A DNA stretch of 64,000 nt from Furfurilactobacillus milii (lineage in GTDB: Bacteria > Bacillota > Bacilli > Lactobacillales > Lactobacillaceae). This document shows positions 3,136-59,248 of the stretch, one piece after another. The position numbers and the translations under genes were made by a program. The notes beneath the pieces are model-generated. The model ran no database searches. It was given only the letters and a program-made list of their open reading frames with translations, and had not been told where the DNA came from. The stretch is taken from positions 124,001 to 188,000 of the forward strand of contig NZ_WEZQ01000017.1 in assembly GCF_009864005.1 (NCBI RefSeq). The letters run 5' to 3'. Every line of letters begins with the position of its first letter. Position 1 is the stretch's first letter.

Positions 3136-3314
3136 CCGTTCCGCCTGGCAGGGATGCCATTCCTTGGGACCGGTCTCAGCCTCCCAAAACCGGAGTCTTT
3201 AACCTCGATTTTGAGCCACAAACCGTCTCAAAAGTCGTCCCGCAACACTACGTGGCCAAGACCCGCCACCAAGTGTTGCCTTCACGGAATTCTATCCCTG
3301 CCCGGCTTCACTCA
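3136..3314 (-). ncRNA. Dispersed structured element, type A copy 1
   Basis: One of six related elements in this window. The terminal stem pairs GCCTGGCAGGGAT (3143-3155) with ATCCCTGCCCGGC (3294-3306), 12 of 13 pairs. Inside are a CAACACT/AGTGTTG hairpin with a GTGG/CCAC tip, a TTTTGAG/CTCAAAA hairpin and a purine-rich AAGACTCCGG segment, in the same order as the other copies. The terminal stem is unrelated in sequence to the other type A copies, yet still pairs. It lies between the terminators of cfa (+) and azlD (-), so neither gene should transcribe it. The strand is the orientation aligned to the 46 kb copy, and the real direction of transcription is not proven. Function unknown. Confidence 0.65.
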
Positions 3315-18981: not shown

Positions 18982-19158
18982 CCGTTCCGTCGACAGTGGA
19001 TGCCGTTTCATGGGACCGGCTCAAGCTCCAAAAGCGGTCTCGAGCTTTGATTTTGAGCTCCTAAAACCAGGTCAAGTCATCCTGCAATCCTAAGTGGCAC
19101 ACCCCCTGCCACTAACGATTGCGACAACGAAACTCTGTCCACTATCGACTTCACTCAC
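18982..19158 (-). ncRNA. Dispersed structured element, type A copy 2
   Basis: Same fold as the copies at 3.1, 46.1 and 58.6 kb but the most diverged in sequence. The terminal stem pairs GTCGACAGTGGA (18989-19000) with TCCACTATCGAC (19138-19149), 11 of 12 pairs. The inner hairpin is GCAATC/GATTGC where other copies have CAACACT/AGTGTTG, and its tip AGTGGCA/TGCCACT replaces GTGG/CCAC. The stem next to the terminal one is GTTTC/GAAAC instead of TTCC/GGAA. These are compensatory changes. The flanks CCGTTCCG and TTCACTCAC match copy 1. It lies beyond the nupC terminator and upstream of the VanZ gene. Confidence 0.6.
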
Positions 19159-27242: not shown

Positions 27243-30200
27243 TTAATCGCGACGACGCTTCTTAATTCCAGCGAGTACGAATGTACCGCCTAAAATTGTA
27301 AGCCCTAATCCGATCAACCCTGATTCATCGGACTGGTCAGTATTTGGTAATTTTTCACCTGAATGGTCAGTAGTTTCCGAAACTGAACTACCTTCTATCG
27401 CGGTCTTCCCATTGTTTTGACCAGCCTGTGCTTCATTAGGCAAAGTAACTGTTTGAGCGCTTTCCCCTGTTGCATTAGTTAATGGTGTTGCAGTAGCGGA
27501 TGCTGCAGAATCTACCTCAGTAATGCCATTACTACCATGGCCATGAATTGATCCTGTCAAAGCCACTCCATTAGCATTCTTCGTAACAGATTGTCCTCCG
27601 TTGTTGCTACCATTTTCTTGACTGGAGGTCTTCGATAAATTGCTCTTTGAACTTTCAGCATTTTGGGTAAAACCACCATTACTATTGGTTGATCCAACAC
27701 TCGTCGTATTTCCGTCTTGACCTTTACGAGCTTGAGCGGCCTCGTAATCAGCCATTTCTTTCTTGCTCGTGTAGAAGACATAGATTGTTGAACCTTTTCC
27801 TATTTCATCTTCAGGGCCAAAGATTGGATCACCAATCCAACTGCGTAGCACAAACTCTGGTAAGTAGGCACCAGGAATATCATAGTGGCCACCAACATAT
27901 CCGCGAAGGATAAAGTCAGGCGCTATCTTTACTCTCGTTTGAGTTCCATCCGGCTTCATTGCGTAGTACGAAACCGTAATCATTGCCGGAATCTGAGTTG
28001 GCGCCACGCTTGAACCACTCTGACCGCCATTACCATTAGGAGCCACTACGTTTTCGCTTGTTAGACTATCAGCTGTTGAACTGTTGTTGCTAGTCTGATT
28101 AGAGGTAACATTACTGTTACTCATCTGACTAGAACTTGAACCAGTTTGACTTGCTTGACTGGTATTCGAATTCTCAAGACTAGAAACAATCGAACTTGCG
28201 ATCGACTTGATCAATGACGACTCATTGATGCTGGATTGTTCACTGCTCAACGATGAACTCTGACTGTCGACTTTCGTCTCCAGACTACTGATCGAGCTCT
28301 GCTGCGTTGGTGTCAAGCTACTGTTGCTCTTCAAGCTACTCAAGACGGACTTTACACTGCTCAAGCTGCTCTGAACGCTGCTTGGATCAACACTGCTATT
28401 CGTCCCAGTGTTAATGGAGGCGATGACACTATTGACAATCGAACGGGATTCACTTGAGGTTTGACTGGATTGTGAACTCTCGCTGGACAACTTCGTTGTT
28501 AACGACTCAATCTGACTGCTCAATGAGCTGAGGTTGCTGTTAACCGGAACTAAGCTCGATGGATCTAAGCCTAAGCTACTGTTCCCAGCCAAACTGCTCA
28601 TTTCACTGTAAGCACTCTTCAAACTGCTCTCTAATGAGCTGTTCTCCTTGGTCGGATCAGTCCCAACGCTCGTATTCACACTCGTAATCGCACTGCTCAA
28701 GGACGTCAATTCACTTTGTAAGTTCCCTGCCGCAATCGAACTTGCGATCGACTTGATCAATGACGACTCATTGATGCTGGATTGTTCACTGCTCAACGAT
28801 GAACTCTGACTGTCGACTTTCGTCTCCAGACTACTGATCGAGCTCTGCTGCGTTGGTGTCAAGCTACTGTTGCTCTTCAAGCTACTCAAGACGGACTTTA
28901 CACTGCTCAAGCTGCTCTGAACGCTGCTTGGATCAACACTGCTATTCGTCCCAGTGTTAATGGAGGCGATGACACTATTGACAATCGAACGGGATTCACT
29001 TGAGGTTTGACTGGATTGTGAACTCTCGCTGGACAACTTCGTTGTTAACGACTCAATCTGACTGCTCAATGAGCTGAGGTTGCTGTTAACCGGAACTAAG
29101 CTCGATGGATCTAAGCCTAAGCTACTGTTCCCAGCCAAACTGCTCATTTCACTGTAAGCACTCTTCAAACTGCTCTCTAATGAGCTGTTCTCCTTGGTCG
29201 GATCAGTCCCAACGCTCGTATTCACACTCGTAATCGCACTGCTCAAGGACGTCAATTCACTTTGTAAGTTCCCTGCCGCAATCGAACTTGCGATCGATCC
29301 AGTAAGTGAACTGTTTTCAGAACCTGAAATGGACGAATTAATCGAGTTAATCTCGCTAGTCAATGAAGTTATGTCACTGCCAATAGAGCTCTTTTGACTG
29401 ACAGTTGCCTGACTATTGTTGCCTAAACTGGATAGCTGACTCTTATAGTTGTTCAAATCAACAACTAAGGAACTAGCCAAACTGCTTGTATTAGAGTCAC
29501 CAGGATTTGCAACAAGGCTACTCCAGTCAGCGTTGGCCTTATTTACATTCGTTGAAATACTGCTCAATTGACTCTCAACGTTTGCATTCAATACTAAGGA
29601 CTTAACGGCATTATTGATTGTTGTTGTATCGGCATCAATAGTATCTTGATCAACTAACTTTGTGCTATCAAGAGCGGCGTTGCCTACAGTAAGCGCCGAC
29701 GACAATGTAGCCCAACTCTCCGTCGTGTAATCAGATGCGGAATAATTACCTGCATTATTAATAGCTACCTTCAAGCTTTGTACTGAAACCAAACCTGCAA
29801 TTGCATCCGTTAAACCACTTGTAGCGGAACTAACATCGGATTTTATTTTTGTTATTTCTGCATCAGTAGCCGTTTGACTTGCACCCTTAGCTTCTTCTAG
29901 GGCCTTGTTAGCAGCAGTCTTTGCATCAGATAAAGCCTTAACAGTGAACGTACTATAATTATCTGTCTTTAGCTTGTCAGCCAAGTTCATGACAGACTGA
30001 AGCCCTTCCGTGCTGAAAATGGAAGAATATGACACCTGAATCTCATTTGCTGCTGCAGTTTTTGAAACAACCAACTGAGCAGGCTTATTAACAGAATAAA
30101 GTGCCTGATCATCTGGTGTTAATGCAATAAAGTCGGTATTAAATGCATGAATCTGTCCAGTTATCCGACCATTTGCATCTTTGGTATATGTTCCTTTTTG

Positions 30201-33200
30201 CGCTGTTCCACCATTAACAGTATACGTAAATCCTGTTGAACCTATTACATTAGTCGCAACAACAGTAATGTCTTCCTTATTATCCGTAACCAACCGCGCT
30301 GCAGAATCTGCGGCCTGAGCATCCTTAACGGCCTTAACTCCGGCATCAATTGCTACTCCAGCTGCTGTTGCCGCAGACTCAGCACTAGCAACTGCCTTCA
30401 ATGCAACAATTCCAGCTGAAACGGCTTGGCTATTGAATTGAGAGGCCGCCGTACTGTTCCCCGCAGTTGCTGCAGACTGAGCAGAAGCGTTAAAGTCTCC
30501 AACTGCCAAGTATGCAGATTGAGCAACAGCAACATCTGAAACGGCTAAGCTTGATTGATTTCCTGCCTCAGAAGCTGCAGACAAAACTGCCGAATTTGCA
30601 GATTGGGCACTAGCCAGCGCTGCGCTAACATTAGAATTACTTGAATCCGCAGCCACTGCGCTATTAACATCAGCCAACGTATTCTGTGCTTCGGCTTTAA
30701 AGACACCATCCAAGTTAGCACCAGCCTCTTGAGCCGCACTAGCTACGGCGGCTGCGTTCATACCGGCAGAACCGACAGCATTAGAAGCTAACAAGCCTTC
30801 ACCTGATTTAACATCGTCGCTAGCTTGACTAACTAGGCTTGTAGCTTCACTAGCATTGGTAGAAGCAACTGTCTGTGCCGAGGTCGCTAATGATGCTTGT
30901 TCACTAACATTAGTTGAACTTGCACCAGATGCTGTACTTGTCTTGCCTACATCTCCAGTGCCAATTGCATCATTAATTGCTTGAAGAACCTTCTCAGCAG
31001 TGGTCTCACTAACTTGATAAACAGTCTTGAGGGCGTCCACAATCCCAGTTTGAGTAGGATCAACCATGTATGTCAATACGATAACATGATCGGGAAGACT
31101 CGTTTCCTTAAGATCAGGAGTCATTGCATAGCCCTCTGGATTACCGGCGTGAGCATTCGAATTGTCTGTCGAAGAATACGTACCCTTGCTGAGAATCTTC
31201 GATGCCGCTGTCAAGACAGTAGCCATCTTATACTCAGAAATATCTGCTTCGGAGGTTAAGCCAATGGTTCCTGCTGTCCAAGTTCCTTTAACTAGGCTAA
31301 CTGGTAAGAAGTTATAACTACCATCTGGTTGAACAACTAAGCCATTGTTTTGTCTATATTCAACCGTGTAAGCACCAGGCGTCTTAAAGTCACCTGTCTT
31401 AGACGTGTAAACACTTATAGGCGTATCAATTTCAACACTGCCGTCAGCATGAACAATTTTCACTGCTAATACTTGAGATCTTGTAAATGTTAATTTGATT
31501 AAACCGTTGTTCGTTAAATTGCCGGTTAATGGATTCGGTTGCTTATCATCAGGATCACGAGTGTATTGAACCGCTTTAAGGCTACCTTGATCAGGCAAAG
31601 CATCAATTGTTACACCGCTCAAATCATAGGTATCGCCTGCATAACCATAAGCAAAGATAACGCCGTCTTGAGCGTGAGTACTGTCTAACCCTAATCCAGT
31701 AAATGCAGTCTTAGGAATTGAAGGCTGAGCGCCGTACTTAACAACCGACTCACCATATTGATCCACAACGCTTAAAGTTTCTGCAATCGGAGCCTCTACA
31801 GTCAGGGTTACATCAGGCGTTGTGCCAAACGCACCATTTGGCATAGTTTGCTTCTTAACTAGGCGATATGGAACATTCTTTGTCCAATCAATTGTCTTTC
31901 CAGAAATATCTTTAAACGTTAATGAAAGTGAATCATTTGGCATAGTCGCGCTAAGTCCAGTTGCCCATGTTGCTTCATCAGTCGGGAAAGCATCACCGTA
32001 TGATCCATTTAAAGTTCCAGTCCCAACCGTTGTCCCATCAGCTGTCTTAAATGTAACATTAACGGACTTTGTGTCCGCAGTGTAAACAACATTAACTGAC
32101 TGATTACCTGTAATTTGAACTGTACTATTTTGCGCGGAATAGTTCGTCAGTGAAGGGACAATATAATCTCTTTCATCTTGTGTATGCGCACCATTATCGT
32201 TTGTGCCCCAAACATTTAGCTGCCCTTCGCCAACGGTCAGGGGTACATCCTTGACACCAGCGAGACTATTCCCATTCTGATCGACAAAGTGCAATGTGAC
32301 TTGTCGTGTTCGAATTAACGGAATTTTTGCCAGACTTGACTGATCAAAATTCCCTGTAATGGTAAATTCGTGATCATTTTGATTATATGTGACGCCCGTT
32401 GGTAACGTTGCAGATGCATCTAATTCATATCCTGATGGCATTGCAACAGTAACTGTATACTCATCTTTGATTTCACCGGTCTGAACTGCAAAGCCATGTG
32501 CAATGTAACTATCGTCACCCTGATTAACAAGCGTCAACTGTTTTGAAACGGATCCTTTTTGTGTGTCATCCCATCCACTATAAATTGCAGCTGGGCTAAC
32601 TGCGACATTATTGCCTTTATTTGTAAAAGATAAAATCAACGAATTCTGCTGATCCAAGACTAACGTGACTTTATTCGTTCCAGTATCCCCAAGAGTAAAG
32701 TCTTGAACCTTGCTAAATGCTTGACCATCAATCCTATATAGCTTGGTTCCATCTGCAGACTTAATCACTGAAAATGATCCTTGAGACTGTAGCTTTTCAA
32801 ATTGTTCTTTAAAGGACACATCCTTTAGTCCTGGTACATCGTATGAGGTAACTCCGGTGCCAGTTCCATCGAGGCTTGCCACTGTCACTGGTTGACCATT
32901 CTGATCTACAAAACTGACAGTAACATCTGTGCTTGCCTTGTCATACGTAAAGGTCACGTTACCGTCGGTCGTTGGCCAACCGTCTGTAAAGGACTGCGTT
33001 AATGGTGTAGCAGTATATCCGCTAACCGACGGTGCCGTAATGACATGTGTAGTCGTCCCAGCAAAATCATATTGATCTGGATGTTGCACACCTGTAGATT
33101 GTGTAGCAAAAGTCTCGTCGCCCGATGTCTTAGGTGTCAATGTGACACTAACTTTTGTTACGGTGTTGTACTTTAATGTGTACGCCTCGGTAAATATCGT

Positions 33201-36137
33201 GCCAAGCATCGTACCATCTTTTTTATTAGTCAAAGATGAAGCTTTATCGGTAATTGTTGTCGTTGTATCAGAAGACAAATCAGTCAGCGCTGCCTTCCCT
33301 GTTGAATAAAACTTACCGATATTTGAGGCATCATTCGCCTCGGCCACAATAGCTGATTGACCAGCAGTAAAAGCCTTATTCACAGCTTTAGCTTCTGCAT
33401 TGTAAGCATACCTATAAGCATCCTTAACAACCGCACCCAAAGCTGATGGAAGACCACTGATAACACTTTGATCTGCCACCTTTCCGGCTGGTGTTTCAGT
33501 TAATGTTGGGATTGAATCATCAGCTAATGTTAAAGCCTGTGCTTTAGTGTCCACAGCCGTATAGCCTGCTTTAATAAGTGCTGCACTTGCCTTAGTCAAC
33601 GCATCCCATGTTTGTTGATAAGTTGGTGACGTATAAACAAGTGGCGCCTCATTTTGACCCTGAGGCCAAGCAGTAAATGTTGTTACTGGCGCTTTTCCTT
33701 CATGCATCGGATCTTTTTTGAAGTCACTAATTGCTTGCTGAACACCGTTATAAGCGGAATTATAGAAGCTTAGTAACAAAGCCTTTGCAGAAGCAGCCTG
33801 TGCAAGTTTAAATGGATCAGTTTCATTTTTACCATTTAGTAAGTCCGCATTATTGGTTCCACCATTGTTTGCACGTTGTGCCTCAGCCGACGCAATAATG
33901 TCAGTATTAACAATTCCGTTGCGCGCATCATCGTAACCTAACGCTTGATAAAACGGCGCTTCAGCAGCCAACATATTAAAGCCTGCATTAGTAGCCAAAT
34001 CTAGGGCCTCACCTGGTGCACCAATTTGCAAAAAGTTAACACCATTGTTCAGCTGTCCTGATCCAGACCCATTTGCCCATGCGTTATACAAATTAATGCC
34101 ATTCGAATTATTGATTGTAAATGTTCCATCTTGTAGCATCGTGGTAATCTTTGCAGCCGCATCTTGTTGCCCCATCTGGTACTCACCGACTAAAGCAGCC
34201 ACAATACCAGTTTTCAATGATTGGTAAATCATGTTCGGCATACCTGTATTAGGATCACCGAAGATTCCTGCAGGATTACCTAACCAACTGACAGATTTGT
34301 ATAGTGGAACTTGATTCATTAAATCAATCAGTGTTGTAGGGAGTGAAACTGTTCCGCTCATTGTTAAGAACGTTTTGTATGCGGAATACTGGATATAGTT
34401 CTGGGCAATATAAACGATGGCATTAATAGCATTACGTAAACCCAAGTTAGCCGTGACACCTTGTCCGCCAAGCATATGATTCCCAACATCGCTCTGAACA
34501 TCGCGGTTGTCATCCACTGCTTTGTATCCATCAGCCACATTGTAAGCAAAGACAGATGAAAAGTTTTGATTGTAACTATCCGTGAGCTTGGACATGATTG
34601 CACCAACTGTCCCCGCTTGATTAATAAAACTTGAATTAAGTACACCAGGATAGTCGTCAGTTGACTTAGCAAAGTCCATAACAAATTGTGCAATAGCATG
34701 GGCACCAGCATTTTCCGTGCCATTATTTTTATCATAAGTATAGATATTCATTGCCATACTGGAAATTTGAAATTCTTGAATTACATGATTAATCCAGCGT
34801 GCATATTCTTGTGCGTCACGTTCGATTCTGTTGTGATATCCAGCATCATAGGTAGTTTTATCGACCTGAGTACCACCAATATTTCCAACAAGCCATCCAG
34901 TATAACCACCAACAGTTTTGGTGTCGTTAAAATTCGAATTCGTCCAAGCTGCTGGATTACTATAAATATTGTTCCAATCGGAAATGCTTGTCGAACTCAT
35001 GTCTGACCCAGCGTCATTCCAACCGTCGTTCCAGTTCTTTTGGCCTACCAATCCTGTTGTATCTGCTAAAGTAGGTATTTTGACTTGAACAGACTGCAAA
35101 GTTTTCAATAGCTTACGCATTTGGTCTTCATTAGCGCCAGTCTTTTGAATGTTATCCATCTCTGTACTAGTAAGACCTAACGTTGCAAAGGCACGAATAT
35201 TATCATCCGTTAATCCACGACCCTTAAGCGTCTGAATCAATGTTGCGTTGTATGTAGCCAATACTTGATCCGGAGTTAAATCCACACCGGCCGTACCCGT
35301 ACTCGTATCATCCTTTTGAGTAACCTCGACTTGTGTAGCTGTAAAATCCGAGGGCTTCAACGTGTTTTGTACACCAGCTGGTAAGTCAACGGTAACTTTA
35401 CCTGCCGCATCAGAAGTTACTGTAGTTCCTGTTGGCAAAACGGCCCCTGCCTTAACAACAGTCTGATCAGCACTAGAGGTGGCAGTTGAGACTGAGGTGG
35501 CAGTACTAGTCTTTGATGCTTGACTGGTCGTCATGCTTGAAGTAGTTACACTATTGGCCTCGGATGTTGATGTTCCCTCTGATGTTGGCGTTACCTTTGA
35601 ACTATCTTGATTTTGTGAATTTGTCGAAGTAGAATCAGCTTCCGTTGCACTCTTAGCTTGAGAGTCACTGTTGCTTGTAATTGATTCTTGTTGAGAAGAT
35701 CCTTGTGTGCTATTAGTCACACTGCCAGTTTGACTTGCATTTGACCCCGTTTGAGATGACGATTGACTAGCATCAGTACTCTTGGATTCAGATGTCGTTT
35801 GAGAAACATTAGCTTGAGTGGTTGAAGCATTACCATCGACCTTGCTTGTAACCGTCGACTCTGAGTTTGAACCACTAGTTGCTGTATTAGAAAGGGTAAC
35901 CGAATTCTGATTTACGAGAGAGCCACTTTCACCGTTCGCAACTGATGTTGTATCACCCGAAGAAGCATTCGTTGACGTATCAGCATGCGCGGATACTTGA
36001 CCAGCACCAATGATAGAAGCTCCAAATAGCAGAGAAATACCGGCGAAAACCCAGTGTTTGCCGTCTTTATACATTTTATAGTGAAGCTTTTCAACCGCTT
36101 CGGCGAGCCCTAAGTTTCGCTGTTTTTCGTGTCTCAT
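27243..36137 (-). CDS. Giant serine-rich surface adhesin with KxYKxGKxW signal
   Basis: A 2964-residue cell-wall protein. Residues 21-29 (KMYKDGKHW) form the KxYKxGKxW motif of an extended signal peptide ending near SAHADT. A Ser/Thr-rich segment (about 50-230) and a large unique domain (about 290-900) follow. Next are beta-rich modules with VDQNG motifs resembling MucBP repeats, FIVAR-like helical segments (about 2030-2150), and a second Ser-rich stalk with two identical 182-residue repeats. One more MucBP-like module precedes a C-terminal sorting signal LPNTD plus hydrophobic helix and KKRRRD. Asp replaces the usual Gly of LPxTG. It is probably O-glycosylated by the products of the gene cluster at 37.5-42.6 kb. 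Confidence 0.93.
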   Translation of the reverse strand: MRHEKQRNLGLAEAVEKLHYKMYKDGKHWVFAGISLLFGASIIGAGQVSAHADTSTNASSGDTTSVANGESGSLVNQNSVTLSNTATSGSNSESTVTSKVDGNASTTQANVSQTTSESKSTDASQSSSQTGSNASQTGSVTNSTQGSSQQESITSNSDSQAKSATEADSTSTNSQNQDSSKVTPTSEGTSTSEANSVTTSSMTTSQASKTSTATSVSTATSSADQTVVKAGAVLPTGTTVTSDAAGKVTVDLPAGVQNTLKPSDFTATQVEVTQKDDTSTGTAGVDLTPDQVLATYNATLIQTLKGRGLTDDNIRAFATLGLTSTEMDNIQKTGANEDQMRKLLKTLQSVQVKIPTLADTTGLVGQKNWNDGWNDAGSDMSSTSISDWNNIYSNPAAWTNSNFNDTKTVGGYTGWLVGNIGGTQVDKTTYDAGYHNRIERDAQEYARWINHVIQEFQISSMAMNIYTYDKNNGTENAGAHAIAQFVMDFAKSTDDYPGVLNSSFINQAGTVGAIMSKLTDSYNQNFSSVFAYNVADGYKAVDDNRDVQSDVGNHMLGGQGVTANLGLRNAINAIVYIAQNYIQYSAYKTFLTMSGTVSLPTTLIDLMNQVPLYKSVSWLGNPAGIFGDPNTGMPNMIYQSLKTGIVAALVGEYQMGQQDAAAKITTMLQDGTFTINNSNGINLYNAWANGSGSGQLNNGVNFLQIGAPGEALDLATNAGFNMLAAEAPFYQALGYDDARNGIVNTDIIASAEAQRANNGGTNNADLLNGKNETDPFKLAQAASAKALLLSFYNSAYNGVQQAISDFKKDPMHEGKAPVTTFTAWPQGQNEAPLVYTSPTYQQTWDALTKASAALIKAGYTAVDTKAQALTLADDSIPTLTETPAGKVADQSVISGLPSALGAVVKDAYRYAYNAEAKAVNKAFTAGQSAIVAEANDASNIGKFYSTGKAALTDLSSDTTTTITDKASSLTNKKDGTMLGTIFTEAYTLKYNTVTKVSVTLTPKTSGDETFATQSTGVQHPDQYDFAGTTTHVITAPSVSGYTATPLTQSFTDGWPTTDGNVTFTYDKASTDVTVSFVDQNGQPVTVASLDGTGTGVTSYDVPGLKDVSFKEQFEKLQSQGSFSVIKSADGTKLYRIDGQAFSKVQDFTLGDTGTNKVTLVLDQQNSLILSFTNKGNNVAVSPAAIYSGWDDTQKGSVSKQLTLVNQGDDSYIAHGFAVQTGEIKDEYTVTVAMPSGYELDASATLPTGVTYNQNDHEFTITGNFDQSSLAKIPLIRTRQVTLHFVDQNGNSLAGVKDVPLTVGEGQLNVWGTNDNGAHTQDERDYIVPSLTNYSAQNSTVQITGNQSVNVVYTADTKSVNVTFKTADGTTVGTGTLNGSYGDAFPTDEATWATGLSATMPNDSLSLTFKDISGKTIDWTKNVPYRLVKKQTMPNGAFGTTPDVTLTVEAPIAETLSVVDQYGESVVKYGAQPSIPKTAFTGLGLDSTHAQDGVIFAYGYAGDTYDLSGVTIDALPDQGSLKAVQYTRDPDDKQPNPLTGNLTNNGLIKLTFTRSQVLAVKIVHADGSVEIDTPISVYTSKTGDFKTPGAYTVEYRQNNGLVVQPDGSYNFLPVSLVKGTWTAGTIGLTSEADISEYKMATVLTAASKILSKGTYSSTDNSNAHAGNPEGYAMTPDLKETSLPDHVIVLTYMVDPTQTGIVDALKTVYQVSETTAEKVLQAINDAIGTGDVGKTSTASGASSTNVSEQASLATSAQTVASTNASEATSLVSQASDDVKSGEGLLASNAVGSAGMNAAAVASAAQEAGANLDGVFKAEAQNTLADVNSAVAADSSNSNVSAALASAQSANSAVLSAASEAGNQSSLAVSDVAVAQSAYLAVGDFNASAQSAATAGNSTAASQFNSQAVSAGIVALKAVASAESAATAAGVAIDAGVKAVKDAQAADSAARLVTDNKEDITVVATNVIGSTGFTYTVNGGTAQKGTYTKDANGRITGQIHAFNTDFIALTPDDQALYSVNKPAQLVVSKTAAANEIQVSYSSIFSTEGLQSVMNLADKLKTDNYSTFTVKALSDAKTAANKALEEAKGASQTATDAEITKIKSDVSSATSGLTDAIAGLVSVQSLKVAINNAGNYSASDYTTESWATLSSALTVGNAALDSTKLVDQDTIDADTTTINNAVKSLVLNANVESQLSSISTNVNKANADWSSLVANPGDSNTSSLASSLVVDLNNYKSQLSSLGNNSQATVSQKSSIGSDITSLTSEINSINSSISGSENSSLTGSIASSIAAGNLQSELTSLSSAITSVNTSVGTDPTKENSSLESSLKSAYSEMSSLAGNSSLGLDPSSLVPVNSNLSSLSSQIESLTTKLSSESSQSSQTSSESRSIVNSVIASINTGTNSSVDPSSVQSSLSSVKSVLSSLKSNSSLTPTQQSSISSLETKVDSQSSSLSSEQSSINESSLIKSIASSIAAGNLQSELTSLSSAITSVNTSVGTDPTKENSSLESSLKSAYSEMSSLAGNSSLGLDPSSLVPVNSNLSSLSSQIESLTTKLSSESSQSSQTSSESRSIVNSVIASINTGTNSSVDPSSVQSSLSSVKSVLSSLKSNSSLTPTQQSSISSLETKVDSQSSSLSSEQSSINESSLIKSIASSIVSSLENSNTSQASQTGSSSSQMSNSNVTSNQTSNNSSTADSLTSENVVAPNGNGGQSGSSVAPTQIPAMITVSYYAMKPDGTQTRVKIAPDFILRGYVGGHYDIPGAYLPEFVLRSWIGDPIFGPEDEIGKGSTIYVFYTSKKEMADYEAAQARKGQDGNTTSVGSTNSNGGFTQNAESSKSNLSKTSSQENGSNNGGQSVTKNANGVALTGSIHGHGSNGITEVDSAASATATPLTNATGESAQTVTLPNEAQAGQNNGKTAIEGSSVSETTDHSGEKLPNTDQSDESGLIGLGLTILGGTFVLAGIKKRRRD
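28191..29282 (-). repeat. Two tandem 546-bp repeats in the adhesin gene
   Basis: Positions 28191-28736 and 28737-29282 encode the same 182 residues (about residues 2286-2649) of Ser-rich stalk, and appear identical at the DNA level. Such identity implies recent duplication or ongoing homogenisation. The copy number could vary by recombination, changing stalk length in frame because 546 is a multiple of three. Confidence 0.95.
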
Positions 36138-46073: not shown

Positions 46074-46258
46074 AGTGAAGTCGATTAAAGACAGAGCGCC
46101 GTGTCGACAACACTTATGGCCTGGTTTAAGGCCATTTAGTGTTGTGGGACGAGTTCTGAGACGATGAACTATTCGGCTCAGAATCGAGGTAGAAGACTCC
46201 GGTTCTCAGGAGGCTGAGACCGGTCCCCACGGAACGACGTCTCTAATCGACGTAACGG
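46074..46258 (+). ncRNA. Dispersed structured element, type A copy 3
   Basis: Reference copy for the family. The terminal stem pairs GTCGATTAAAGAC (46080-46092) with GTCTCTAATCGAC (46239-46251). CCGTG (46099-46103) pairs with CACGG (46228-46232). The inner hairpin pairs CAACACT (46108-46114) with AGTGTTG (46138-46144) and has an ATGGCC/GGCCAT tip. The next hairpin pairs TTCTGAG (46154-46160) with CTCAGAA (46177-46183). A CTCC/GGAG hairpin (46197-46212) is followed by the conserved GAGACCGGTCCCC. In other copies the third base pair of the TTCTGAG helix changes to A-T or T-A with its partner. Flanks AGTGAAG and GTAACGG are conserved. Transcription direction unknown. Confidence 0.7.
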
Positions 46259-55230: not shown

Positions 55231-55315
55231 ATTTATTGGCCTACAATTGTGGCTAAGACAGAACCGACTAGATGCTCCGATTTATTGGCTGTCGCGCTTT
55301 AACATAGTTAACGTA

Positions 55316-55500
55316 GCGGAAGAGCGTCAACATTGAAACCAAGCCGTGAAAATGTTGTTAATTCGAACGGTTTACTCGGATTTACAACATGGACGGTCGC
55401 AGAGACTCGGGTTCTTACGAGGCTCTACGGCGAGGTGAAAGACTCCGGCTTCAGGAGGCTTGAACCGACCCCACGGCGGCGTTTCAATGTTGACAACCGG
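55316..55500 (+). ncRNA. Dispersed structured element, type B copy 1
   Basis: Same architecture as the type A elements but a separate subfamily. The terminal stem is a perfect 14 bp (GTCAACATTGAAAC 55326-55339 with GTTTCAATGTTGAC 55481-55494). GCCGTG/CACGGC extends it. An ATGTTGT/ACAACAT hairpin has an inner AATTCGA/TCGGATT helix, and a GAG-CTCG/CGAG-CTC hairpin follows. The 3' half has GGCGAGGTGAAAGACTCCGG and CAGGAGGCTTGAACC, close to the type A sequence. It is intergenic between converging genes, after the hairpin at 55185. Confidence 0.65.
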
Positions 55501-55539
55501 ACGTGGCATCTATGCTACTTTTAGTACTAGCTCTATTGT

Positions 55540-58592: not shown

Positions 58593-58775
58593 CCGTTACG
58601 CTGATCAGAAACGCCGTTCCACGGGGACCGGTCTCAGCCTCCTAAAAGCCGGAGTCTTCTACCTTGATTATGAGCCGAAGTACACGTCTCATAAGTCATC
58701 CCGCAACACTAAGCGGCCAAGTTCTCGCCGCCAAGTGTTGCCGACACGGAACTCTGTTTCCGGTCAGCTCCACTA
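58593..58775 (-). ncRNA. Dispersed structured element, type A copy 4
   Basis: The terminal stem pairs GCTGATCAGAAAC (58600-58612) with GTTTCCGGTCAGC (58756-58768), 12 of 13 including one wobble. The GTTCC/GGAAC helix, the CAACACT/AGTGTTG hairpin with GCGG/CCGC tip and the TTATGAG/CTCATAA hairpin match the family, with compensatory changes. CCGTTACG flanks one side, as in copy 3. On the minus strand a TATAGT box (58775-58780) lies just outside the terminal stem. It lies 90 bases from type B copy 2, in opposite orientation, in the same 811-bp divergent intergenic region. Confidence 0.68.
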
Positions 58776-58804
58776 CTATATAAAAATAAAAAATTGAGGC
58801 TGCA

Positions 58805-58831
58805 TTTACAAAAAAAGTTTGTCGTTATAAT
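58805..58831 (+). promoter_or_regulatory. Possible promoter of the type B element copy 2
   Basis: TTTACA (58805-58810) and a consensus TATAAT (58826-58831), 15-16 bp apart, point at the type B element, which starts about 30 bases downstream. Confidence 0.45.
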
Positions 58832-58864
58832 GATACATACTAAAAGTATGCCACTGTGTGGGCT

Positions 58865-59045
58865 GAAGGGCGTCAACATTGATACCGAGCCGTGAAGGTG
58901 TTGTTAATCCGAATGGTTCTCTCGGATTTACAACATGGACGGTCGCGGAGACTCGGATTTCCACGAGGCTCTGCGGCGAGGTGAAAGACGGCGTGGCTCC
59001 GGATTGAACCGGTCCCACGGCGAGCGTGTCAATGTTGACAACCGC
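58865..59045 (+). ncRNA. Dispersed structured element, type B copy 2
   Basis: Close relative of the element at 55.3 kb. The terminal stem GTCAACATTGATAC (58872-58885) pairs with GTGTCAATGTTGAC (59026-59039), 14 of 14 with one wobble. The TGTTGT/ACAACA hairpin has the inner helix AATCCGA/TCGGATT, where the 55.3 kb copy has a G-T pair restored here to G-C. The CTCC/GGAG hairpin seen in other copies is altered (GACGGCGTGGCTCC). The region between it and the transporter gene (to 59248) holds only a GAACAAT/ATTGTTC inverted repeat and the ribosome binding site. Confidence 0.68.
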
Positions 59046-59248
59046 AAGCGTAGTCAAAGCACAACTTTGCATCATTATGACCACCCAATCAGCTTGTTTG
59101 TTGCTGAAATGAACAATCGCGTGTAAACTAAGACGGTCGCATTGTTCGGCCATGCCGCAAACATCATCGCACAGACTGTGCCGTGATCATTTGCTACATA
59201 ATATAACTAAAACAAAATTTTAATCCTCGCTGAGGAGGTTTTATTTTC

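Follow-up and report, generated by a model that had tools for sequence, protein, structure and literature searches.

What is the folded intergenic element at 46074-46258 of the window (the whole 64,000-nucleotide stretch of Furfurilactobacillus milii DNA analysed here), how did it come to be repeated, and what keeps its fold? A sequence-only reading had grouped it with dispersed copies whose pairing is preserved while their letters differ, and had attributed this to selection on structure, as in a functional RNA or a folded DNA substrate.

The window contains six copies of the element. A search with the covariance model R1 found the four type A copies where the sequence-only reading had placed them, plus two copies of type B at 55321-55500 and 58867-59045, both on the plus strand (Table 1 gives their wider R2 bounds). 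The positions were correct, and the strands need one correction: the copy at 46074-46258 is on the plus strand and those at 3136, 18982, and 58593 are on the minus strand, and identity among the type A copies increased from 68% with all read forward to 75% with these three reversed. Orthologues of 46074-46258 in three sister genomes were 92-96% alike. No partner was detected for the copies at 3136..3312 and 18982..19155 with the type B model R2. The latter copy was lost in genome G002 by a deletion that joins both arms of the closing stem, as expected from slippage across a hairpin. Elsewhere in the window, positions 27243-36137 (minus strand) hold an open reading frame of 2964 amino acids with a KxYKxGKxW signal peptide. 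It lies in a stretch of approximately 26.8-42.8 kb for which megablast found no counterpart in the fetched portions of genomes G001, G002, and G003, and which is perhaps a strain-variable surface-protein segment.

Table 1. Elements in the window and helices of the copy at 46074..46258 (A3, alignment of type A copies; R1 and R2, covariance models).
Feature	Position	Strand	Details
Type A element, core fold (subject of this analysis)	46074..46258	+	R1 176.1 bits, E 2.2e-48; fold z -7.3
Closing stem P1, 5' side	46080..46092	+	pairs with 46239-46251; A3 columns 7-19/182-195; 13/13 pairs changed on both sides
Closing stem P1, 3' side	46239..46251	+	partner of 46080..46092
Second helix, 5' side	46096..46102	+	pairs with 46229-46235; A3 columns 23-30/170-177; 6/7 pairs changed on both sides
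Second helix, 3' side	46229..46235	+	partner of 46096..46102
Hairpin arm P2	46107..46145	+	A3 columns 35-49/60-74; 11/13 pairs changed on both sides
Hairpin arm P3, AGAC/GGCU motif	46150..46186	+	A3 columns 79-91/115-125; 7/11 pairs changed on both sides
Hairpin arm P4, same AGAC/GGCU motif as P3	46188..46221	+	A3 columns 127-139/149-162; 7/9 pairs changed on both sides
Type A element	3136..3312	-	179 bits; between convergent genes
Type A element	18982..19155	-	121.1 bits
Type B element	55313..55508	+	R2 183.4 bits; absent in G002 and G003
Type A arm of divergent pair	58593..58774	-	198.7 bits
Spacer of the 58593/59053 pair	58775..58858	none	
Type B arm, partner of 58593..58774	58859..59053	+	R2 217.4 bits; R1 74.9 bits

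The copies share a branched fold that is preserved through extensive base changes. The core of each arm is about 180 nt and consists of a closing stem and three hairpin arms. Folded as RNA, 46074-46258 had z scores of -7.3 (plus strand) and -9.1 (minus strand), and none of 200 shuffles was as good on either strand. RNAalifold applied to 54 type A copies (alignment A3) gave 55 pairs, and in 45 of these both partners had changed (shuffle mean 26.0). Over the whole structure 95.9% of cells were paired (shuffle mean 82.4), with 457 cells versus 123.4 in shuffles and a score of 0.459 versus 0.191. The structure exceeded all shuffles on five measures (0/500), bearing in mind that related sequences can exceed shuffles without structure, and sliding the partners by 1-3 columns lowered pairing to 33-39% of cells. 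Among paralogues, covariation of the kind expected of a functional structured RNA is present beyond both the shuffles and the sliding controls. A3 comprises 54 of 65 type A copies, including three of the four in the window; it omits near-identical orthologues (L031, L037, L041, L043, L045, L047, L048, L004, which is window copy 58593, and L052) and the degenerate copies L016 and L058, and the short copy L038 had been dropped earlier.

The closing stem had been described as unrelated in letters yet paired, and this was borne out: all 13 pairs had changed on both sides and 94.4% of cells pair among the 54 copies. The proposal that AAGACTCCGG is a conserved single strand did not hold, as about six of its ten letters sit in the helix of the fourth arm. 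In the second helix, the window copy has two broken pairs that are formed in the G002 and G003 orthologues, and two are also broken in the G001 orthologue (by eye). The AGAC that faces GGCU in both P3 and P4 is mostly invariant or nearly so. The consensus fold was more stable on the sense strand (-71.4 kcal/mol) than on the other strand (-51.5 kcal/mol), and changes among paralogues were more often of the G-U than of the A-C type in three alignments (78:31, 59:15, and 69:32). Counted pair by pair, this bias was significant in one of the three (sign p 0.14, 0.004, and 0.49).

The family is large in its own genome and extends through the Lactobacillaceae. The covariance-model search of the genome and family that had been proposed raised the count in the source genome (G000) from 43 blastn matches to at least 130 with R1, of which 56 scored above 104 bits (type A) and 74 below (type B). 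If there are 130 copies of 182 nt, the elements make up approximately 0.9% of the 2.73 Mb genome. They are unevenly spread among its contigs, with 21 matches in C5 (127 kb), 19 in C20 (136 kb), and 1 in C1 (358 kb). The six genomes of the genus had at least 130, at least 127, at least 117, at least 129, at least 29, and 0 matches with R1, and genome G200 had at least 145 with a broader model, R3; these are lower bounds, with 150 candidates scored per genome, and a few of the matches are partial. The genus member with no match among 150 scored candidates, G004, has either undergone wholesale loss or never acquired the element. With six candidates scored per genome, at least 87 of 397 Lactobacillaceae genomes, from at least 10 of 40 genera, had a match, as did at least 31 of 395 Lactobacillales genomes (R3) and at least 3 of 398 in the class (R3), all three of them Lactobacillales. 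Relatives in other Lactobacillales have low copy numbers. A pattern scan of named genomes found matches in Furfurilactobacillus rossiae and F. milii only, and blastn searches of plasmids and of phages found no element match at that sensitivity.

Neighbouring elements are arranged as divergent pairs. All 38 sets of neighbours less than 700 bp apart in G000 were divergent (32 A-B and 6 B-B), as were all 47 in G200, where 12 of the gaps were exactly 90 bp. This is the inverted doublet with a spacer that is the hallmark of REPINs and BIMEs. The type B model revealed extra, partly degenerate B partners beside four "solo" type A copies, again all divergent. In two lists of neighbours from other genera, 11 of 12 and 13 of 13 were divergent; three places are in both lists (L136/L154, L135/L160, and L140/L166), and an 18-bit antisense row in L139 was left uncounted. 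The exceptions to divergence were tandem copies in L151, G316, and L226. When 20 pair units from G200 were aligned, 13 resembled one another throughout the arms and spacer (by eye). In the best-preserved form, that of G200, terminal inverted repeats enclose two outward-directed arms, one of type A and one of type B, with about 90 bp of spacer between them. At one site, C20:42799-42969, the element is type B in G000 and seemingly type A at the same site and strand in G001 (by eye), and this seems to be an exchange or replacement. A long inverted repeat occupies a pair's spacer at L139:1254-1356, with sub-threshold plant-miRNA Rfam rows on both strands.

The units in G200 carry the marks of transposition. 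Their ends are CTAAAGGTTGAAAG and its complement, and the terminal 14-mer (up to 1 mismatch) had 54 sites in that genome versus 1 for a control pattern. Both repeats (up to 3 mismatches) were present in six of 20 G200 units, which are 574-639 bp long. Exact target duplications flanked four of these six (8 bp in L243 and L258, 7 bp in L250 and L253); L246 had none, and the flank of L257 was too short. Two shorter derivatives also had exact target duplications when read by eye, namely L277, a 384-bp unit with a B arm alone (8 bp), and L278 (7 bp); a third, L263, is a 262-bp internal deletion with a target duplication that has one mismatch (also by eye). Terminal inverted repeats and target duplications are the features of MITEs, and based on their presence we conclude that the units in G200 moved as MITE-like elements. 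In L260, L261, and L273 of G200 a gene takes its stop codon from a solo terminal repeat (C-TAA-AGG...), which places remnants or insertions exactly at gene ends.

No candidate for the mobilising enzyme emerged from the genes nearby. Among 20 fetched G200 regions, no transposase gene was enclosed by two repeats; the IS3-, IS30-, and IS21-like genes there (named by eye) adjoin a solo repeat, and an autonomous element between terminal repeats was rejected for these regions. The RAYT Y1 transposase (PF01797, Y1_Tnp) was rejected because it was absent from six of ten element-bearing genomes (G000, G001, G002, G286, G272, and G669); matches were found in G003 (broken), G005, G200, and G336. In cluster lists, no candidate mobiliser was beside elements in different genera, and the genes that recur beside elements were from orthologous loci and common families. 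Among 23 pairs and 23 solos from Furfurilactobacillus, neither terminal repeats nor target duplications were detectable. Inverted repeats within versus between units were 7.35 versus 7.03 for pairs (SE 0.24) and 7.54 versus 7.07 for solos (SE 0.25), and direct repeats were 4.76 versus 4.78 and 4.61 versus 4.82. Mobility in Furfurilactobacillus is therefore argued from homology with G200. A search for an empty site with one target copy found no clean case, and an indel at 55321 had microhomology only.

Most tested Furfurilactobacillus copies are inherited in place, vertically. The span was kept in 40 of 45 locus-by-genome comparisons (18 units from contig C20 and the window with usable flanks); in one of the five exceptions, a type A-like copy stands in G001 instead of the type B copy. 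The elements also evolve slowly at these sites. Over 58 orthologous comparisons, differences amounted to 4.8% in elements, 13.8% in the 60-bp flanks, and 6.0% in the 500-bp outer flanks, which are probably mostly coding. Counted only among G001, G002, and G003, which removes any bias from copy discovery in the source genome, the values were 4.9% for elements and 11.4% for flanks, with the element lower at 19 of 21 loci. Gap fractions were similar (11.1% in elements and 9.6% in flanks, lost copies counted).

Structural constraint at orthologous fixed sites was present and moderate. The cleanest test used changes unique to one other genome at 21 loci. Changes affected 115 of 2554 paired sites (4.5%) versus 90 of 1165 unpaired sites (7.7%; p 1e-4). 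Double changes that kept a pair numbered 4 (null 0.6, null maximum 3), broken pairs 56 (null 63.0, null minimum 57), and single changes that kept a pair 49 (null 49.9), which is no excess; G-U-type changes outnumbered A-C-type changes 47 to 23 (p 0.006). A first test had found changes at 3.3% of paired and 8.1% of unpaired sites, with 114 kept singles (null 88.6), 100 broken pairs (null 136.8), and 8 kept doubles (null 2.5, maximum 10); its pair-keeping excess is biased because the copy under comparison also supplied the fold from which the pairs were read. With only Watson-Crick pairs seen on both strands, doubles numbered 6 (null 0.9, maximum 5), the pair-keeping excess was absent, and there were 49 G-U changes (null 54.3) and 18 A-C changes (null 21.8). 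The claim that selection acts on structure is supported by covariation that beats every shuffle and is tempered at fixed sites, where pair-keeping single changes are not in excess. The fold on the outward strand is constrained, though not strictly.

The elements lie between genes in several arrangements. Among 45 of 92 units with both neighbours present, 25 were flanked by tandem genes, 16 by convergent genes, and 4 by divergent genes; of the window's 23 long intergenic gaps, 3 had convergent genes on either side. Units were oriented both with and against the neighbouring genes, so a role in read-through RNA gains no support from orientation. With the sigma-70-type consensus, no promoter enrichment was seen ahead of the copies examined (40 of type A, 30 of type B): the best -35/-10 scores versus shuffled sequence were 8.08 versus 7.92 (sd 0.12) for A and 7.97 versus 7.87 (sd 0.15) for B, and sigma-70-type promoters in the spacer were rejected on this basis. 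Neither a conserved terminator nor a U-run past the 3' ends was seen by eye among the matches listed.

Copies inside operons were found in another family. In family f4/g43, 14 of 40 genomes had a match, and the operon content suggests that g43 is Streptococcus. Copies were between purD and purE at 16 loci in 16 genomes (the genes were identified from their size and opening letters, and at one locus by NCBIfam), between grpE and dnaK once, between pheS and pheT once, and between infB and rbfA at three loci on the opposite strand; one further copy adjoins a purF-like gene (by eye). The 17 purD-purE copies form two sequence groups and add little independent evidence, because the both-side changes, seen at 22 of 43 pairs, mostly separate one group from the other. 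In L162 (G272) and L170 (G336), the element is between homologues of the same two genes in two genera, so either the insertion is old and shared or the place is a hot spot. Another region of G272, L163:3755-4826, has direct repeats that recur about every 204 bp and are 70-78% alike.

On balance, we lean towards a MITE-like mobile family of the Lactobacillales in which selection acts on the fold, probably that of the RNA. The transposon ends, the fixed divergent pairing, and the slow evolution would be best accounted for if a MITE-like element spread a branched module that selection now holds, in part through its outward fold. A non-autonomous unit would have been moved by a transposase acting in trans, and its copies would now be of use to the cell. 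Selection would act on the outward-reading arm (5' to 3'), most likely in the form of RNA within read-through transcripts at gene ends; we favour this because G-U changes are preferred to A-C changes and because copies are inside operons elsewhere. The stable branched structure might then shape the 3' ends or the processing of mRNAs, which is the weakest step of the proposal. A bolder version, which we regard as rather doubtful, is that the ~180-nt transposon-spread module constitutes a genome-wide cis-acting RNA system at more than 100 gene ends per Lactobacillaceae genome, in which one shared putative protein binds the AGAC/GGCU helices of P3 and P4 and sets mRNA ends or stability.

The same observations could be read as a selfish folded-DNA substrate, as proposed for REPINs, in which a transposase recognises the fold of single-stranded DNA, the structure persists solely because movement requires it, and the host gains nothing. 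Paired inverted arms, high copy number, and the terminal repeats with target duplications in G200 are consistent with this, the one-strand bias also fits single-stranded DNA, and moderate constraint at fixed sites fits slowly decaying copies. However, immobile selfish copies should drift, yet copies that are mostly in place differ less than their flanks at nearly all loci compared, and Y1_Tnp is missing from most of the element-bearing genomes tested. We consider this account unlikely, though a serious contender. A mutational origin of the matching changes, by template switching between the arms of a stem and with no structural selection, appears quite improbable to us. Such arm correction is expected to give matching changes in long stems, the G002 deletion between stem arms indicates that the hairpin affects replication, and double changes exceeded the null where single pair-keeping changes did not. 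It does not predict the bias of G-U over A-C changes, either at fixed sites or among paralogues, nor the low divergence of whole elements relative to flanks, and even unpaired positions were below the 60-bp flanks (8.1% versus 13.8%, same comparisons).

Two further readings concern the gene neighbourhood. Bidirectional punctuation (a terminator, an insulator, or a nucleoid mark) that works chiefly through double-stranded or cruciform DNA would account for the intergenic sites and for the frequency of convergent genes (16 of 45 units versus 3 of 23 long gaps), but it is at odds with the one-strand bias, with the lack of a U-run past the stem by eye among the matches listed, and with the copies inside operons in another family, and we give it little credence. 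The divergent layout, the short spacer, and the better fold on the outward strand would suit small RNA genes that are each transcribed independently from a promoter in the spacer, but the upstream -35/-10 scores equal those of shuffled sequence and no conserved terminator was apparent by eye among the matches listed; we think this very improbable. In these food bacteria the elements present one fold in many natural replicates, which differ in locus and in closing stem, and allow testing whether transposon-spread bacterial hairpins become host functions.

The family is apparently undescribed, and is apparently a MITE/REPIN-like one new to the literature. The sequence-only reading had called for a scan against Rfam: there were no matches at the gathering score in the window and none overlapping an element at that score in 20 further loci, and in 20 others scanned in E-value mode none of 9 rows overlapped an element. 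Membership in an Rfam family was rejected on the basis of the window and these 40 loci. HEARO and omega RNAs are dispersed structured RNAs linked to mobile elements, and they, like the other Rfam families, differ from the element in that none matched it in these scans. Going by titles and the starts of abstracts, we found no paper on this repeat family. Among known repeats, bcr1 of the Bacillus cereus group, BOX and RUP of pneumococcus, and ERIC are structured intergenic repeats of approximately 100-200 bp that are probably mobile; by description only, they resemble the element as structured intergenic repeats. Like MITEs, the elements are short, have no transposase gene inside, and have terminal inverted repeats, target duplications, and internal-deletion derivatives. 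Unlike MITEs, they retain a branched fold in their interior from one genus or family to another, and they evolve slowly at fixed sites. The word 'lactobacill' has 0 matches in a MITE review (PMC10969869). REPINs and BIMEs, as portrayed in two papers (PMC3116915, PMC2817692), are related folded units in inverted orientation, at high copy number, extragenic, and thought to be mobile as a doublet, and in these respects the present family is like them. The REP unit itself is given as 20-40 bp with a GTAG or CGTC tag in a third (PMC3733652). REPINs and BIMEs are moved by RAYTs, whereas most of the element-bearing genomes tested here have no Y1 transposase. The units of the present family are also far larger than REPs as given there, at about 180 nt with three hairpin arms, and they combine two distinct arm types with, in G200, terminal inverted repeats and target duplications of 7-8 bp.
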